From assembly GCF_013249045.1 (NCBI RefSeq), contig NZ_JABRWP010000001.1:1-64000 (forward strand): a stretch of DNA of 64,000 bases, written 5' to 3'. Source of the stretch: Winogradskyella eckloniae. Its GTDB lineage: Bacteria > Bacteroidota > Bacteroidia > Flavobacteriales > Flavobacteriaceae. The notes below the pieces were generated by a model. It saw nothing but the letters and a program-made list of their open reading frames with translations. It made no database searches and was not told the DNA's origin. A program made the position numbers and the translations under genes. Positions within the stretch are counted from its first letter, which is position 1. Each line of letters begins with the position of its first letter. Shown piece after piece: positions 2,645 to 34,835 of the stretch.

Positions 2645-3067
2645 ATGAATTTACCCAAAGACTTGACGAGATTTTTAAAATCAAAATCGGAATTGATTTA
2701 CGACCACAAAACTGTGGAACCTGACTTTGTCGGAATTATTGACTTTGACAAATTAGAACTCGGAAAAGTATGGATTGAGGGAAATGTTAGTGGAAAATCT
2801 TATTATGAAATTCCTGCAATTAATCTGACTGACGAGTGTAAACATTATGACCCTGAATATATCCTACTCTACTTGCCAAATGAAAAACTTTACGGAACTT
2901 GGGATTCTGACCATTGGAAACTTTATGTTTTCCCAAATATTAATTGGGCAGACATTGCTGAAAATCCAGCAGAATTTATAAACCAACAGTGGAATCCAAA
3001 AAAAGAAATCGGAATTGAATTTGACCCGAAAGCGAATTATAAAATAATAAATGGATGGCCATTTTAA
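2645..3067 (+). CDS. Hypothetical protein, cassette-like orphan gene
   Basis: A 140-residue acidic, aromatic-rich protein with no signal peptide, no transmembrane segment and no motif I recognise. It reads like a small cytoplasmic alpha/beta protein. It follows an attC-like folded repeat by 87 nt, and such elements often precede single genes of unknown function, including toxin, immunity or defence accessories. The start ATG at 2645 has no Shine-Dalgarno site, as is normal here. Its stop overlaps the longest possible frame of the next gene, but that overlap disappears if the next gene starts at the TTG at 3094. It is likely a real gene because of its codon use and length; the function is unknown. 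Confidence 0.6.
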   Translation: MNLPKDLTRFLKSKSELIYDHKTVEPDFVGIIDFDKLELGKVWIEGNVSGKSYYEIPAINLTDECKHYDPEYILLYLPNEKLYGTWDSDHWKLYVFPNINWADIAENPAEFINQQWNPKKEIGIEFDPKANYKIINGWPF

Positions 3068-7737: not shown

Positions 7738-8691
7738 ATGTCTTCAAAAATATTAATCATTGGTGCCTGCGGGCAAATTGGTACAGAACTTACTACCAAA
7801 CTAAGAGAAATTCATGGTGTAAATAACGTCATTGCAAGTGATATTAATACAAGAAAATTAGACTTGGTTAATGCTGGTCCATTTGTAATTTTAGACGCCA
7901 AAAATTTTAATGCCATTAAGGACTGCTGTATAAATAACAACATTGATACGGTTTATCTCATGGCTGCCTTATTAAGCGCTACAGGCGAAAAATACCCAAT
8001 GGAAGCATGGGACTTAAATATGAACTCGCTTTTTCATGTTCTTAATTTGGCCAAAGGCGGACAAATAAAAAAAGTATTTTGGCCAAGTAGTATTGCCGTT
8101 TTCGGTCCAACTACTCCAAGTTTAAATACACCTCAACATACCATATGTGAACCTACAACCGTCTATGGCATTACAAAACAAGTTGGTGAACGTTGGTGCG
8201 AATACTATTATAACAAATATGGTGTAGATGTTAGAAGTATTCGCTATCCTGGTATAATTAGCTATAAAGCTATGCCTGGAGGAGGAACCACTGATTATGC
8301 TGTTGAAATCTATCACCAAGCAATTAAAGAAGGGAAATACACCAGTTTTTTATCTAAAAACACCAACTTACCAATGATGTTTATGGATGATGCGATTAAA
8401 GCTACAACAGATATTATGGCTGCGCCTGCTAAAAATATATCCATTAGATCATCTTATAATCTTGCTGCTATTAGTTTTACGCCAGAAGAGATTGCAAATA
8501 GTATTAAAGCTGAAATACCAGAATTTAATATTAGTTATAAACCAGATTTTAGACAAGCCATTGCAGACAGTTGGCCTGCCTCTATAGATGATAGTGTGGC
8601 TAGAAACGATTGGAACTGGTCTCACGAATTTGATCTTAAAACCATGACTGCCGAAATGCTAACGCAACTTAGAAAAAAGTACAACGGTTAA
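7738..8691 (+). CDS. L-threonine 3-dehydrogenase, SDR type
   Basis: Oxidises L-threonine to 2-amino-3-ketobutyrate with NAD+, feeding glycine and acetyl-CoA production in the cytosol. The 317-residue length and motifs match the short-chain (UDP-galactose-epimerase-like) threonine dehydrogenases known from psychrophilic Flavobacterium rather than the zinc type. Visible are the Rossmann motif G-A-C-G-Q-I-G (about 9-15), W-P-S-S-I-A-V-F-G-P (about 119-128), the catalytic Tyr-x3-Lys in Y-G-I-T-K (about 143-147), and the substrate loop S-Y-K-A-M-P-G-G-G-T-T-D-Y-A. It is monocistronic, with its own -7 box and terminator. Confidence 0.92.
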   Translation: MSSKILIIGACGQIGTELTTKLREIHGVNNVIASDINTRKLDLVNAGPFVILDAKNFNAIKDCCINNNIDTVYLMAALLSATGEKYPMEAWDLNMNSLFHVLNLAKGGQIKKVFWPSSIAVFGPTTPSLNTPQHTICEPTTVYGITKQVGERWCEYYYNKYGVDVRSIRYPGIISYKAMPGGGTTDYAVEIYHQAIKEGKYTSFLSKNTNLPMMFMDDAIKATTDIMAAPAKNISIRSSYNLAAISFTPEEIANSIKAEIPEFNISYKPDFRQAIADSWPASIDDSVARNDWNWSHEFDLKTMTAEMLTQLRKKYNG

Positions 8692-8719
8692 CTTTTAAAA
8701 TAGCATTAAAAGCACATTA

Positions 8720-8806: not shown

Positions 8807-8880
8807 CTCCTCTTCTTAGGCTCGAACTAAGGACCCTCTGATTAACAGTCAGATGCTCTAACCAACTGAGCTAAAGAGGA
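8807..8880 (-). tRNA. tRNA-Asn (anticodon GTT)
   Basis: A 74-nt cloverleaf on the minus strand. The acceptor stem is TCCTCTT/AAGAGGA with discriminator G, the D arm contains AGCTCAGTTGG, the anticodon loop is CTGTTAA giving GTT, and the T arm contains GTTCGAGCC. CCA is not encoded. A well-spaced promoter lies upstream. Confidence 0.97.
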
Positions 8881-31029: not shown

Positions 31030-31908
31030 TTATTGAACCATCATTTTTAGTTCACCTCTATATTTAGAAGCACTTTTTCCTGTAAATTCTTTAAAGAGTT
31101 TATTAAAATGTGAAAAATTATTAAATCCACATTCAAAACTTACATCAGCAATGCTCATTTGACTTTCGGATAATAATTTTGTTGCGTGTACTACTCTATA
31201 TTCGTTTACAAGCTTGGTAAATGTTTTACCTGTTACTTTCTTAAAGTAGCGACAAAACGCAGGAACCGTCATACTTACCTTCTCTGCAATCTCATCTAAA
31301 CTAATATGCTCTTTGAAATTTTGGTTAACATGCTTAAATACAATATCTATCTTAGCACTATCTTGTGGCTCGGTTTCAAAAGCAAAACCATCTACATTTA
31401 ATAAGGTATAATCTTCTGACTTAGCTAAACCATGCAATACTTCAAGTAGAATTAGAATTTTTTTAAATCCTTCCTTTTCATTAAGCTTTTCTATTTTAGC
31501 ACCAAGCTTCTGCTTTGTTTTTACTCCAAAAAGAATTCCTTTTTTAGAACGCTCAAATAAAAGGTTGATTTTTTCCATCTCTGGAATATCAAAAAAATGA
31601 TTTCCCAAAAACTCTGGTTTAAATTGTACTAAGGTTTCAGATCCATTAATAGTTAAACGGTCTGTAAAACCATTATGCGGTAAATTGGGTCCTATTAATA
31701 ATAACTGGCTATTGTTAAAATAAGATAAATGGTTTCCTATATGTCTTTTACCTTGACCTTTGTTAACATACACCAATTCTATTTCTGGGTGAAAATGCCA
31801 AAATGGTTTATTCTCACCTTTATATACATCCATTTTGTGTCGCCTTACTTTTAAGGAACTACCAAACTCAGGACTAATTTTTTCTAATGTAGGTTTTCTT
31901 GCTTTCAT
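31030..31908 (-). CDS. AraC-family regulator with N-terminal cupin
   Basis: Transcriptional regulator of 292 residues. The N-terminal cupin (about 25-110) has P-F-W-H-F-H-P-E-I-E-L-V-Y-V-N-K-G, a sugar/effector-binding barrel. The C-terminal double HTH (about 190-290) has S-L-D-E-I-A-E-K-V-S-M-T and the second helix pair ending C-G-F-N-N-F-S-H-F-N-K-L-F-K. It is divergent from the first of three small secreted paralogues, and the shared 265-nt region carries a 12-bp inverted repeat found again before the other two paralogues, so this protein is the natural candidate to bind it. Its own -7 box is at 31925-31932. Confidence 0.92.
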   Translation of the reverse strand: MKARKPTLEKISPEFGSSLKVRRHKMDVYKGENKPFWHFHPEIELVYVNKGQGKRHIGNHLSYFNNSQLLLIGPNLPHNGFTDRLTINGSETLVQFKPEFLGNHFFDIPEMEKINLLFERSKKGILFGVKTKQKLGAKIEKLNEKEGFKKILILLEVLHGLAKSEDYTLLNVDGFAFETEPQDSAKIDIVFKHVNQNFKEHISLDEIAEKVSMTVPAFCRYFKKVTGKTFTKLVNEYRVVHATKLLSESQMSIADVSFECGFNNFSHFNKLFKEFTGKSASKYRGELKMMVQ

Positions 31909-31932: not shown

Positions 31933-31977
31933 AGTTATATAATTCTTACATTCTATGTAAAATTACCAAAAACATAC

Positions 31978-32081
31978 ACAAAATTAACCTTATTACATAA
32001 TTAACACCCTCGAAAGGTTAATTTTGTATATAAATTTGACAAAATTGATGTTTTCTCCGACGAAATGCTGCTCTAAATTTG
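31978..32081 (+). promoter_or_regulatory. Composite promoter/operator of paralogue A
   Basis: In order: ACAAAATTAACC (31978-31989), a 26-nt gap, its perfect inverted copy GGTTAATTTTGT (32016-32027), a CAAAATTGA half-site (32040-32048), GATGTTTTCT (32047-32056), 17 nt, and the -7 box TAAATTTG (32074-32081). The same elements at the same spacings precede paralogues B and C. The 5' leader is about 85 nt. Confidence 0.75.
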
Positions 32082-32173: not shown

Positions 32174-32731
32174 ATGAAAACATTATTTAAAAACATTTTA
32201 GTATTAGCAGTGATGTTAGGAACATGCACTACTTACGCAAATGCAACCTTAGACAATTCACCAACATTTAACAATGTAAATGAAGGCGATTTAATTTCTG
32301 TAACAGACGCAAAAGGGCAAATCGTTTATAACGGTCGCATTAACAACTCAGGTAACATTCAAAATCTTTATGATTTTTCTCAATTAAAAGATGGCGTTTA
32401 TACAATAGAAGTAAATAAAGATTTTGAAATTAAAATCAATAAGGTTCAGGTTTCAAACAACATCGTTACTTTTTTAGAAACATCTGAGACCACTATTTTT
32501 AAACCAGTTTTTAGATCAGAAGATTCTAAACTTATTGTTTCAAAATTAGCGATTGATACTGACGAGATGGAAATAGAATTATATTTTGGAAATGATTTAA
32601 TCCATACTGAAACAGTAAAAGGAAATGAAATAATAAACCGAGTTTACCAATTAGATAAATCAAGAAAAGGCGAATATACTGCGATCATTAAAGCAAATGG
32701 ACGTGTATTTGTTGAAGATTTCAAATTATAG
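32174..32731 (+). CDS. Small secreted two-module protein, paralogue A
   Basis: A 185-residue exported protein with a signal peptide ending T-T-Y-A-N near residue 22. The mature part looks like two beta-sandwich modules, each similar to the T9SS type A sorting fold: the first has ...VTDAKGQIVYNGRI... with Q-L-K-D-G-V-Y-T-I-E, and the second has M-E-I-E-L-Y-F-G-N and R-K-G-E-Y-T-A. It is the first of three tandem paralogues. It differs most from B and C (for example it ends F-V-E-D-F-K-L). Possible roles are an abundant surface or adhesion component; this is inference. Confidence 0.7.
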   Translation: MKTLFKNILVLAVMLGTCTTYANATLDNSPTFNNVNEGDLISVTDAKGQIVYNGRINNSGNIQNLYDFSQLKDGVYTIEVNKDFEIKINKVQVSNNIVTFLETSETTIFKPVFRSEDSKLIVSKLAIDTDEMEIELYFGNDLIHTETVKGNEIINRVYQLDKSRKGEYTAIIKANGRVFVEDFKL

Positions 32732-32762
32732 ATTATTGTTTACACATTAGTTTTATTAGTTG

Positions 32763-32791
32763 AAAAAGTGGGCCAGAAAGCCCACTTTTTT
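32763..32791 (+). terminator. Intrinsic terminator of paralogue A
   Basis: The stem AAAAAGTGGGC/GCCCACTTTTT with a 6-nt loop and a T run, 31 nt after the stop. The remainder of the 391-nt gap (32792-33122) holds only the promoter of paralogue B. Confidence 0.9.
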
Positions 32792-32994
32792 AATTTTATA
32801 AAGTAACAACCCATCACGTTATTCTTCGCTTAACTTTTTTTATTAAAAAGTGTCTATTACTATTTTACTCAACGTCCTTTTTCTTCTTAATTTTTTAATG
32901 TAACAAACACTTCATATTGGTCGCCCATTTTACCATGCGACTCAACGTTTTACTTAAAAACAACTGTTGCTTAAATTATCTCAAAAATATACTA

Positions 32995-33094
32995 TTTTAA
33001 CCTAATAGTTTTACCCAAATAATTATACGGTTAATTTTGTATAAAAATGTACCAAAATTGATGTTTTCTACAAAGCAAACTACCTTTAATTTTG
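32995..33094 (+). promoter_or_regulatory. Composite promoter/operator of paralogue B
   Basis: TTTTAACC (ending 33002), exactly 26 nt, GGTTAATTTTG (33029-33039), CAAAATTGA (33053-33061), GATGTTTTCT (33060-33069), 17 nt, and the -7 box TAATTTTG (33087-33094). Spacing is identical to paralogue A. The ATG is 28 nt further on. Confidence 0.75.
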
Positions 33095-33122
33095 TACCTG
33101 TAATCACTTAATACAATTTATT

Positions 33123-33680
33123 ATGAGAACAGTATTTAAAAAATTATTAGTAGTAGCATTAGTGTTTGGAACATTAACAAGCTACGCCAACGAAGTTGTA
33201 GATGTTAACACAACTATGAACTACGTAAAAAAAGGAAACCACATTTCTGTATCAGATGCTTTTGGAAAAATCATCTATAGTGGAGAAATTAACTATAACG
33301 GAAATCTTACATCACTATATGATTTTACCCAACTACAAAATGGTTTATACGATGTAGAAGTTACCAATGGCTATAAAATAGAAATTAGCACTATTGAAGT
33401 AATGAACAATAAGGTTTCTATCGTAGATGTTAACAAAACAGTAATCTTTAAACCTGTTGTTAGAAATGATAATTCTCAATTAATTATTTCTAAACTGGCT
33501 TTAGATCATGAAGATATGGAAATAGAACTTTTTTATAAAGGAGAACTAATCCATACAGAAACTGTTTCTGGAGAAACAATTCTAAACCGTGTGTACAAAT
33601 TAGATGCCACTCTAAAAGGAAATTACACAACTATTATTAAATCTAATAATAGAGTTTTTGTTAAAAACTTTAGAATATAA
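33123..33680 (+). CDS. Small secreted two-module protein, paralogue B
   Basis: A 185-residue paralogue of A and C, with a signal peptide ending near S-Y-A-N. It shares with C the core H/Y-I-S-V-S-D-A-F-G, N-R-V-Y-K-L-D and the ending R-V-F-V-K-N-F-R-I, so B and C look like the more recent duplicates. There are two beta-sandwich modules and no cysteines in the mature part. It has its own promoter and terminator, so each copy is an independent transcription unit. Confidence 0.7.
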   Translation: MRTVFKKLLVVALVFGTLTSYANEVVDVNTTMNYVKKGNHISVSDAFGKIIYSGEINYNGNLTSLYDFTQLQNGLYDVEVTNGYKIEISTIEVMNNKVSIVDVNKTVIFKPVVRNDNSQLIISKLALDHEDMEIELFYKGELIHTETVSGETILNRVYKLDATLKGNYTTIIKSNNRVFVKNFRI

Positions 33681-33716
33681 TTCCGTAGTCACTTCACAAT
33701 TATTATTAACCTATAT

Positions 33717-33747
33717 AAAAGGTAAGCGCAATGCTTACCTTTTTTTA
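33717..33747 (+). terminator. Intrinsic terminator of paralogue B
   Basis: The stem AAAAGGTAAGC/GCTTACCTTTT with a 5-nt loop and seven T, 36 nt after the stop. Beyond it, the 526-nt gap holds two further hairpins (33858-33882 and 33939-33962) and the promoter of paralogue C. Confidence 0.88.
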
Positions 33748-33857
33748 TTTATAGATTTTATAAAAGTGTTTATATAAGGTAGTACCTATTTAATAAATAC
33801 AGCGTCTTTTGCATTCTTAGTTTACTTAACACATATGAAGACTCCCAAACAATTACT

Positions 33858-33962
33858 TCCCATAATTTGTGTTTTTATGGGATCTATTTATCCTGTTGGT
33901 TGTTTTAAATGATAAATACCTACTTATATTGTGACATAACATAGATCATAAATTATCTATGT
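33858..33962. other. Two unexplained hairpins between paralogues B and C
   Basis: TCCCATAA/TTATGGGA (33858-33865 with 33875-33882, 9-nt loop) and ACATAGAT/ATCTATGT (33939-33946 with 33955-33962, 8-nt loop) lie in a long spacer with no good gene. They could belong to a small RNA or be remnants of a former unit. Confidence 0.35.
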
Positions 33963-34080
33963 GTATGTTATTAATGTCATTTATTATCAAAATTGTATAG
34001 TCAAAAACCAATATATAATTCTACATCTTTTTTGGGCCATTTTTAAAAGCTATGGAAAATTACCATTAATATATGTTATA

Positions 34081-34178
34081 TTAACCCATAATATAACACC
34101 TTTACCTTACATGGTTAATTTAACACACAAATAAGCCAATTTCGATGTTTTCTACACTTCAAATACCCTATATCTTTG
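34081..34178 (+). promoter_or_regulatory. Composite promoter/operator of paralogue C
   Basis: TTAACC (34081-34086), exactly 26 nt, GGTTAATTT (34113-34121), a weak third half-site, GATGTTTTCT (34144-34153), 17 nt, and the -7 box TATCTTTG (34171-34178). Spacing matches paralogues A and B, though the rest of the sequence has diverged. The ATG is 28 nt further on. Confidence 0.75.
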
Positions 34179-34206
34179 TATCAGTATTAACAAATACATT
34201 TTTATT

Positions 34207-34764
34207 ATGAAAGCAGTATTTAAAAAAATCGCAATAGTAGCCTTAATGTTAGGAACATTTACAAGCTACGCTAACGAGATTGCAGAAGTAAAGTCTTCTT
34301 ATTACCGTGTTGAAAAAGGAAATTACATTTCTGTGTCAGATGCTTTTGGTGAAGTAATCTATAGTGCAGAAATCAATAATAATGGTAACTTAATTAAGCT
34401 TTTTGATTTTACTCAATTAAAAAATGGTGAGTATAACGTAGAAGTTACTAAAGATTTTGAAATTGAAGTTAACACTATATTAGTAAAAAACAATATTGTT
34501 TCCATTTTAGATTCTAACAAAAAAACAATTTTTACACCTGTAGTAAGAAATGAAGAGTCTAGAATATTAGTATCTAAATTAGCCTTAGATGCAGAAAAAA
34601 TGGAAGTTGAAATTTATTTTGAAGATGAGCTTATTCATACTGAATCAGTTGAAGGAGAAACTATATTAAACCGTGTGTACAAATTAGACGAAACACTTAA
34701 AGGGAATTACACAACCGTTATCAGGTCTAACGACAGAGTGTTCGTCAAGAATTTTAGAATATAA
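34207..34764 (+). CDS. Small secreted two-module protein, paralogue C
   Basis: The third 185-residue copy, with a signal peptide ending near S-Y-A-N. Like B it has Y-I-S-V-S-D-A-F-G in the first module and ends R-V-F-V-K-N-F-R-I. Identical length in all three copies, despite divergence, indicates constraint on the whole chain. It has its own promoter and terminator, and lies upstream of a convergent enoyl-CoA hydratase gene. Confidence 0.7.
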   Translation: MKAVFKKIAIVALMLGTFTSYANEIAEVKSSYYRVEKGNYISVSDAFGEVIYSAEINNNGNLIKLFDFTQLKNGEYNVEVTKDFEIEVNTILVKNNIVSILDSNKKTIFTPVVRNEESRILVSKLALDAEKMEVEIYFEDELIHTESVEGETILNRVYKLDETLKGNYTTVIRSNDRVFVKNFRI

Positions 34765-34801
34765 ATTGTTGTTTATATATTATTAGTTTATTTATTTAGT
34801 T

Positions 34802-34835
34802 AAAAAAGTGGGTGGTAGAGAACCCACTTTTTTTT
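34802..34835 (+). terminator. Intrinsic terminator of paralogue C
   Basis: The stem AAAAAAGTGGGT/ACCCACTTTTTT with an 8-nt loop and a T run, 37 nt after the stop. It can also work on the opposite strand. Confidence 0.9.

Follow-up and report, generated by a model that had tools for sequence, protein, structure and literature searches.

Why would a bacterium keep three genes for small proteins lacking a cargo domain side by side, and equip each of them with a promoter and a terminator of its own? The question is raised by Winogradskyella eckloniae (contig NZ_JABRWP010000001.1, positions 1 to 64,000; these 64,000 nucleotides are hereafter the window). The initial annotation had described three tandem proteins of exactly 185 residues, made of two beta modules and controlled by private promoters and terminators. 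This description holds: three such open reading frames are present (Table 1), the structure model of copy 3 shows nothing but two beta modules behind an N-terminal helix, a conserved box with a TAnnTTTG element precedes each gene, and a hairpin with a T-run lies 3' of each. The N-terminus of every copy is signal-peptide-like when read by eye. Copy 1 shares 51% identity with copies 2 and 3, which are 66% identical to each other, and no fourth copy was found in the same genome at E ≤ 10. A phage origin of the family was rejected, as phage records gave zero matches. Overall, the sequence-level picture, composed of the gene family, the fold prediction, the box and its spacing, co-occurrence with araC, an RNA element and its stand-alone units, makes it rather probable that this is an AraC-controlled locus yielding exported proteins together with a small RNA.

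Table 1. Features of the locus, in window coordinates.
Feature	Position	Strand	Evidence
AraC-family regulator (cupin-like N-terminal part + HTH_18), proposed dedicated activator	31030..31908	-	Profiles, orthologs
Inverted half-site 5' of box 1, 47 bp from box	31949..31968	-	Score 10.2
Conserved 39-bp box of copy 1	32016..32054	+	Matrix score 44.5
TAnnTTTG -7 element of copy 1, TAAATTTG	32074..32081	+	Pattern match
Family protein copy 1, 185 aa	32174..32731	+	ORF, comparison of copies
3' RNA element of copy 1, terminator hairpin at its end	32718..32793	+	Covariance-model search
Inverted half-site 5' of box 2, 26 bp from box	32983..33002	-	Score 14.7
Conserved box of copy 2	33029..33067	+	Matrix score 40.5
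TAnnTTTG -7 element of copy 2, TAATTTTG	33087..33094	+	Pattern match
Family protein copy 2, 185 aa	33123..33680	+	ORF, comparison of copies
Terminator of copy 2, without strong 3' RNA element	33717..33746	+	Terminator scan
Inverted half-site 5' of box 3, 26 bp from box	34067..34086	-	Score 14.6
Conserved box of copy 3	34113..34151	+	Matrix score 47.6
TAnnTTTG -7 element of copy 3, TATCTTTG	34171..34178	+	Pattern match
Family protein copy 3, 185 aa	34207..34764	+	ORF, comparison of copies, structure model
3' RNA element of copy 3	34751..34835	+	Covariance-model search

The combination of box and TAnnTTTG gave three perfect matches in the window and none in 100 shuffles; no fourth promoter of this kind exists in the genome at up to two mismatches. 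All 84 family genes examined have the 39-bp box upstream, and in 82 of them its distance to TAnnTTTG is exactly 19 bp. With a matrix trained on the same 84 upstream regions that it scored, the lowest family score was 25.1, against at most 5.8 for 420 Markov-generated controls. In 71 of the 84 regions, an inverted half-site scores above the 95th percentile of shuffled sequences; its distance to the box is mostly 26 bp, while smaller groups stand at 36 and 46-47 bp, so the groups are about one helical turn apart. A 21-bp direct repeat within the box was also considered and is unsupported (0.358 at lag 21, 0.379 at lag 12). Thus, the shared operator at a fixed promoter distance that is expected in all targets of an AraC-controlled regulon was found. 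The annotation had taken the private promoters as a sign of selection for dosage or independent control. The former part is favoured; the latter loses ground to an operator-like box shared by all three promoters. Since the same box accompanies every family gene examined and is strongly tied to the adjacent AraC-type gene, co-activation and dosage are likelier, and the three promoters probably serve co-activation rather than independent control.

The regulator itself matches HTH_18 with 78.6 bits (cut-off 33.6) and HTH_AraC with 48.9 bits (cut-off 26.6), while its N-terminal part stays below the cut-offs of AraC_binding (17.6 bits; 21.1) and Cupin_2 (18 bits; 27.2). Across 29 aligned sequences, H38, H40, E44, G51 and H78 are invariant, which we take to fit a cupin-like metal site; the 28 orthologs compared are 64-95% identical to the window protein. 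In 36 of 42 loci picked from family hits, a divergent AraC/cupin gene lies within about 1.5 kb of the family. Among 397 Flavobacteriaceae genomes, 216 carry the AraC gene (E ≤ 1e-80), 180 a family profile match (E ≤ 1e-10) and 175 both, i.e., 175 of the 180 family-positive genomes (raw counts that ignore kinship); 41 genomes with the AraC gene gave no family hit. Within Winogradskyella the box promoter was found in 27 of 27 family-positive genomes (the scan left out the family-positive G023) versus one of ten family-negative ones, the reversed-pattern control giving 0 of 37. In a wider scan, it was present in 49 of 60 genomes with the AraC gene and in none of 20 lacking it, the control giving 0 of 80. 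For a more distant AraC group (55-58% identical), 12 loci were read (L106-L112, L115-L117, L120, L122), and a box scoring at least 18 stood beside the expected promoter in three, L109, L116 and L120. The evidence tying regulator to box is thus of two kinds, co-occurrence and adjacency, and from it we infer that the adjacent AraC protein may bind the box and activate transcription.

The messages of copies 1 and 3 share a further feature, an AU-rich, two-hairpin element at the 3' end. These copies score 81.4 and 77.3 bits, respectively, with the Winogradskyella covariance model, of which both are training sequences; the 3' end of copy 2 matches weakly (31.7 bits, E 0.003). A generic terminator scan lists the terminators of copies 2 and 3 only. 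Between genomes, the 3' element has a median likeness of 84% versus 33% for the araC 3' flank, in 55 pairs drawn from 11 hand-picked elements, three of them stand-alone. This comparison is fairer than an earlier one of 114 genome pairs (medians of 85% for the 3' UTR, 63% for coding DNA and 54% for protein, the 3' UTR being the more conserved in 100 pairs), which is inflated because its 16 elements had been picked by an exact 24-base core. Compensatory changes occur at one pair of the terminator stem in 8 of 23 sequences, and the loop and linker are conserved without covariation. Over the window, Rfam yielded only a tRNA (8807-8880), and for the element no match passed the cut-off in L123-L125 or in ten further loci; sub-threshold L20_leader matches there were taken as chance. 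Two pairing partners were tried and rejected: pairing with family leaders shows no signal, the mean z over 36 of them being -0.21, and pairing with the araC start is unsupported, its codons not being conserved to match.

In other genera, the element has a counterpart that also occurs apart from any protein gene. A model of it (R1) gave 81 strong hits (E ≤ 1.3e-6), 44 at the 3' ends of family genes, 33 stand-alone beside araC and four others near family genes. The stand-alone hits are spread over 31 genomes and, in 30 of 33 cases and many genera, lie 259-495 bp from the araC start. At E ≤ 0.01, hits occur in 53 genomes, 15 of which supplied training sequences. Thirteen of the 94 listed hits (E 1.2e-5 to 0.00924) lie outside this classification; by eye, 11 sit at araC or a family gene, and the two in G409 and G235 do not. 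The 19 stand-alone units that were read measure 152-275 nt, each with its own box (scores 30.8-50.7), and share no ORF, the longest being of 5-30 aa. With a promoter and a terminator but no coding capacity, they have, as far as sequence can tell, the form expected of a stand-alone small RNA. Since these separate short units carry the same box and end in the element, the element is probably a small regulatory RNA. Two genomes appear to keep regulator and RNA with no protein gene detected: G228, which is 77% complete, and G013, where the box is weak. Winogradskyella also has stand-alone units, in G031 and G033, whose 3' ends differ by one base from window copy 3 from TTAGAATAT onward; the W. eckloniae genome has none. 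The R1 model reaches just 31-33 bits on window copies 1 and 3 with filters off, the opposite strand of a terminator reaching 26 bits, and the Winogradskyella element is, therefore, only weakly linked to that of other genera.

Two messages ending in an RNA piece that relatives also seem to make separately hint at an unrecognised protein-plus-RNA control module. It is tempting to go further and suppose that the conserved, working part of the locus is the RNA: AraC would activate a regulatory RNA that is transcribed alone and also forms the 3' end of secreted-protein mRNAs, each message would carry two products, and tandem copy number would tune RNA dosage. We put this forward tentatively, as somewhat short of an even chance. 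A less likely rival to the AraC-controlled protein-plus-RNA reading holds that the 3' sequence is a mere terminator and mRNA-stability end homogenised by gene conversion, and that the stand-alone units arose from family genes through internal deletion of the coding part. Such an origin would agree with the apparent last codons of a family gene retained in the units, with ends almost identical within one genome, with 5' parts that do not align, with covariation confined to the terminator stem, and with the boxes beside araC at L113 and L114, which precede no recognisable product. It accounts less readily for units holding the same place beside araC in many genera, for box scores kept though the inner sequence was lost, and for the 3' element being so much better conserved than the araC flank.

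What, then, are the proteins? The proposal that they are free-standing and built from sorting-domain-like modules, for which structure prediction had been named as the check, agrees with the model of copy 3 (pLDDT 86.8, pTM 0.69). Both modules are predicted Ig-like sandwiches rather than an unrelated fold, and their best-ranked solved neighbours include DUF3244 proteins and the T9SS C-terminal domains of RgpB, PorZ and NucA. Module 2 is closest to DUF3244 structures from Bacteroides, namely 3SD2 (Z 10.6, rmsd 3.2, 82 residues), 3D33 (Z 9.7, rmsd 2.1, 76 residues) and 4G5A (Z 9.3); the RgpB domain 5AG8 gives Z 8.8 (rmsd 2.0, 63 residues). For module 1, the DUF3244 values (3D33 6.4, 3SD2 6.2, 4G5A 6.1) and the T9SS values (PorZ 6.3, NucA 6.3, RgpB 5.9) are all too low to indicate anything beyond a shared arrangement. 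In profile searches, the window proteins reach no curated cut-off: copies 1, 2 and 3 score 21.1, 13.6 and 22.8 bits with PF11589 (DUF3244; gathering cut-off 25). Of 61 family members, 40 match PF11589 at E ≤ 0.01, some reaching E 2e-8, while 31 match PF18962 and 18 match TIGR04183 at the same threshold. Sequence searches of solved structures returned none for query A1 and two chance-level matches for query A2 (E 0.57 and 0.79).

Fold neighbours of this kind invite the thought that the proteins are T9SS-linked, i.e., sorting-domain modules secreted by, or reporting on, the type IX system in the manner of PorA, whose architecture, in the available part of its description, is a signal peptide, an Ig-like domain and a CTD (PMC7712824). 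The host genome is rich in T9SS cargo, with 75 TIGR04183 matches above cut-off among 76 listed; the sole sub-cut-off one is copy 1 (22.1 bits; cut-off 23), and copies 2 and 3 are absent from that list. Copy 1 also falls short of PF18962 (24.4 bits; cut-off 27), and copies 2 and 3 have lower T9SS scores or none. The match of copy 1, however, spans residues 29-91, which is module 1 and not the C-terminus; the C-terminal module alone matched none of six in NCBIfam and one of six with Pfam T9SS models, below cut-off (E 0.041); and the top structural match is DUF3244, not a T9SS domain. We regard a T9SS link as unlikely, at roughly one chance in four. Least credible is that the three copies serve independent control or specialised roles: their promoters and terminators are separate, they have diverged (being only 51-66% identical), the leader of copy 1 is longer and the 3' end of copy 2 differs, but all three have the same box at the same spacing and the genome holds no further promoter of that type at up to two mismatches.

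The AraC-controlled protein-plus-RNA reading suggests the following scenario. The divergent AraC/cupin protein would sense a cue and bind the box of each copy, which reaches the -33 region of the promoter, assisted by the inverted half-site further 5'. The three genes would then start together, terminators holding the units apart. Each mRNA would give a protein with two Ig-like modules of the DUF3244/T9SS-CTD fold, presumably Sec-exported to either the periplasm or the cell surface. The conserved element would form the 3' end of the copy 1 and copy 3 mRNAs, and we infer that it could act as a small regulatory RNA, either cut from the mRNA end or produced alone. If so, an unnamed but common regulated envelope-protein locus exists in about 180 of the 397 sampled Flavobacteriaceae genomes, its regulator and operator defined and its promoters open to testing, and 53 of those genomes (E ≤ 0.01) hold a small-RNA candidate. 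One regulator, and a 3' end common to secreted-protein mRNAs and a stand-alone RNA, would make the passage of mRNA ends into independent regulators directly testable. Among the open-access papers searched, small RNAs whose transcriptional regulator is known were few for Bacteroidota, and neither these papers nor Rfam gave an earlier description of this locus.

Several known systems resemble the locus in part. Rfp18 of Flavobacterium psychrophilum, which might even be the same RNA, is a small RNA conserved in Flavobacteriaceae; it is described as having protease targets and a strong structure of several stems, and the text consulted does not contain 'arac' (PMC9723704). FopS/GibS of Bacteroides thetaiotaomicron form a multi-copy sRNA family whose members include intergenic ones and a single one derived from a 3' UTR, FopS-14 (PMC11697453, PMC7366714). 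The candidate RNA of the AraC loci likewise has 3'-end and intergenic stand-alone forms in Bacteroidota. By these accounts, FopS/GibS have a conserved 5' seed, dispersed loci and glycan-use operon targets (PMC11697453, PMC7366714), whereas here the 3' end is conserved and the units sit at one AraC locus. PorA of Porphyromonas gingivalis, again by partial description, is small and exported, as the window proteins are predicted to be, and joins an Ig-like domain to a CTD; it stands upstream of PorXY-SigP signalling and acts through it, with no AraC or RNA part in that description (PMC7712824). The window modules have a sandwich similar to the T9SS type A C-terminal domain (TIGR04183, PF18962), but unlike type A cargo the proteins have no cargo domain, score below cut-off and, in copy 1, match away from the C-terminus. 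With DUF3244 (PF11589) they share small size, predicted secretion and an Ig-like sandwich; they differ in scoring below the curated cut-off, in having two modules instead of one, and in a locus with a dedicated AraC gene and an RNA element. Finally, in the SgrR-SgrS pair of Escherichia coli, the regulator gene is divergent from the small RNA that it activates; the proteins and RNA of the AraC locus are unrelated to that pair, and here it is tandem secreted-protein genes that share the 3' end of the RNA.

The three family ORFs are arranged in tandem on the + strand, with copy 1 sharing 51% identity with copies 2 and 3 and the latter two sharing 66%; a similarity search at E ≤ 10 revealed no additional family copy in this genome. 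Beyond the divergent araC gene lie genes for an HD-domain protein and then a fatty acid desaturase, and the downstream side of the copies is occupied by genes for an enoyl-CoA hydratase and a histidine kinase. We lean towards a scenario, read from sequence, in which the AraC protein would sense a cue and bind a common operator-like box, raising all promoters of the locus together; the outputs would be exported proteins of two modules each, along with a 3'-end RNA. The proposed regulatory half of this scenario (AraC, box and co-activation) has strong sequence evidence. No prior description of the locus was found in the open-access literature searched.

Features of the locus and of the 35-residue-peptide loci
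Feature	Position	Strand	Remark
Family copy 1 ORF	32174-32731	+	exactly 185 codons
Family copy 2 ORF	33123-33680	+	exactly 185 codons
Family copy 3 ORF	34207-34764	+	exactly 185 codons
AraC-type regulator gene	31030-31908	-	292-residue product; divergent, upstream of copies
35-residue-peptide locus L182 (own genome)	near 3012 (G000:C21:121446-121510)	-	box
35-residue-peptide loci L175, L176, L177, L178			box

Copy 3 as a query matched 28 of 60 genomes, comprising 27 of 37 Winogradskyella (own genome included) and one distant partial match; at E ≤ 0.001 it matched 172 of 397 Flavobacteriaceae genomes (118 of 237 genera), and a 61-row family profile at E ≤ 1e-10 matched 180 of the 397. Adjacency was read from 42 loci, namely the window, one named Winogradskyella locus and 40 fetched regions, which together contain 84 family genes. 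A divergent AraC homolog (64-100% identical) lies within ~1.5 kb of the family genes in 36 of these loci; the genomes of the other six (L064, L065, L073, L074, L098 and L100) carry the AraC gene elsewhere. Of the 397 genomes, 175 contain both AraC (E ≤ 1e-80) and the family (E ≤ 1e-10), 41 only AraC, 5 only the family and 176 neither; these counts are uncorrected for kinship. Two Winogradskyella genomes possessing the main locus also have, at a separate locus, a second, diverged AraC (64% identical) paired with a family gene (L062 on G033:C3 and L063 on G031:C12). An AraC group further removed in sequence (55-58% identical) likewise has an adjoining family member in 12 of 20 loci read: 193-195-residue proteins at eight, and at four (L115, L116, L121 and L122) short 110-147-residue versions, perhaps single-module ancestors or remnants. 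The box matrix mostly gave no site in this distant group.

This 39-bp matrix, trained iteratively on the upstream regions of the 84 family genes, detected a box in all 84 (lowest score 25.1, median 42.1), the highest of 420 Markov controls being 5.8. TAnnTTTG follows exactly 19 bp after the box in 82 of the 84, the strict -7 sequence being absent in two; with the -33 region at the box end, the arrangement is consistent with the Bacteroidota -7/-33 promoter consensus. Whole-genome pattern searches served as an independent test. At ≤2 mismatches, the pattern occurred in 27/27 family-positive versus 1/10 family-negative Winogradskyella genomes, and at one mismatch in 49/60 AraC-positive versus 0/20 AraC-negative genomes; the reversed pattern gave no match throughout either scan. 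The own genome has the three window sites without mismatch and a fourth site with three. In 71 of 84 regions an inverted half-site that scores above the shuffles' 95th percentile precedes the box; 46 of these lie at 26 bp and 18 at 36 or 46-47 bp, spacings about one DNA turn apart. Direct half-sites (4/84) were no commoner than chance. In the window, the inverted half-site stands at 26 bp for copies 2 and 3, whereas that of copy 1 is weaker and stands at 47 bp.

Several Winogradskyella genomes show a fourth kind of box target, a basic peptide of 35 residues encoded next to an RNase G-like gene (table), without a match in a Pfam search; L177 has two such genes in tandem, and the own-genome box, which departs from the pattern at three positions, scores 28.4. 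At the locus itself, a hydrophobic peptide of ~42-43 residues also follows a box in three genomes (L179/L184 in G013, L180 in G017, L181 in G036), likely with one membrane helix; one example searched against Pfam gave no match. A similar 33-residue frame stands behind a box at L114.

The copy 3 structure model, built from 61 aligned relatives (pLDDT 86.8, pTM 0.69), predicts a helix at the N-terminus and a pair of beta modules, which the initial annotation had likened to T9SS tails. For module 2 of this model the best alignments are to DUF3244 structures (3SD2, Z 10.6; 3D33, Z 9.7; 4G5A, Z 9.3); the RgpB T9SS C-terminal domain (5AG8, Z 8.8, rmsd 2.0 over 63 residues) is among the other structures that align. 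Module 1, modelled alone (pLDDT 87.0), has DUF3244 and the PorZ, NucA and RgpB CTDs among its best rows, at Z values of only 5.9-6.4. Sequence scores of the window proteins fall below the DUF3244, PF18962 and TIGR04183 cut-offs; among the 76 TIGR04183 matches listed for the genome, 75 exceed the cut-off, and the sole exception is module 1 of copy 1. Therefore, the window proteins are fold relatives of DUF3244 and T9SS CTDs, not members by curated tests. They may have a T9SS-linked role resembling that of PorA, as the available part of one report presents it (PMC7712824).

As for the RNA, many family genes of other genera have in common, at their 3' ends, an AU-rich stretch plus a terminator whose loop is conserved; compensatory changes appear in the terminator stem, and the remainder is conserved without covariation. 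At E ≤ 0.01, a covariance model built from 23 such ends matched 53 of 397 genomes, of which 52 are AraC-positive. The 81 matches at E ≤ 1.3e-6 fall directly after a family gene (44), in stand-alone units beside araC (33, in 31 genomes) or otherwise near family genes (4). Each of 19 stand-alone units read has its own box (scores 30.8-50.7) and -7 element, runs 152-275 nt to the T-run and shares no ORF with the others (longest 5-30 residues). Rfam gave no match above cut-off for the element in the window and other loci scanned; the sole window match above cut-off is a tRNA (8807-8880, - strand), and a Flavo-1 RNA (RF01705), also above its cut-off, lies at 8635-8708, - strand, of L123, a stretch that includes an AraC locus of G073.

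The Winogradskyella element has a sequence different from that of other genera, and in the window it is carried by copies 1 and 3, hardly by copy 2. Stand-alone units with strong boxes were found in two other Winogradskyella genomes; compared from TTAGAATAT onwards, their 3' ends match that of window copy 3 except at a single base. G013, a Winogradskyella without a family match, carries beside araC a short unit whose box is weak (19.4).

The chief competing view of the RNA, which we consider rather unlikely, is that gene deletions left the stand-alone units behind as remnants and that the 3' end is no more than a terminator. In the 19 units read, the last 75 nt are near-invariant, including the apparent last codons of the family gene, and median identity between genomes is 84% for the element versus 33% for the araC 3' flank (55 pairs). 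Because the element is conserved and occurs separately, we infer that the RNA would be active. Bacteroides is already known to have small RNAs of which some members are intergenic and others 3'-UTR-derived (PMC11697453), and a conserved sRNA, Rfp18, has been described in Flavobacterium (PMC9723704).
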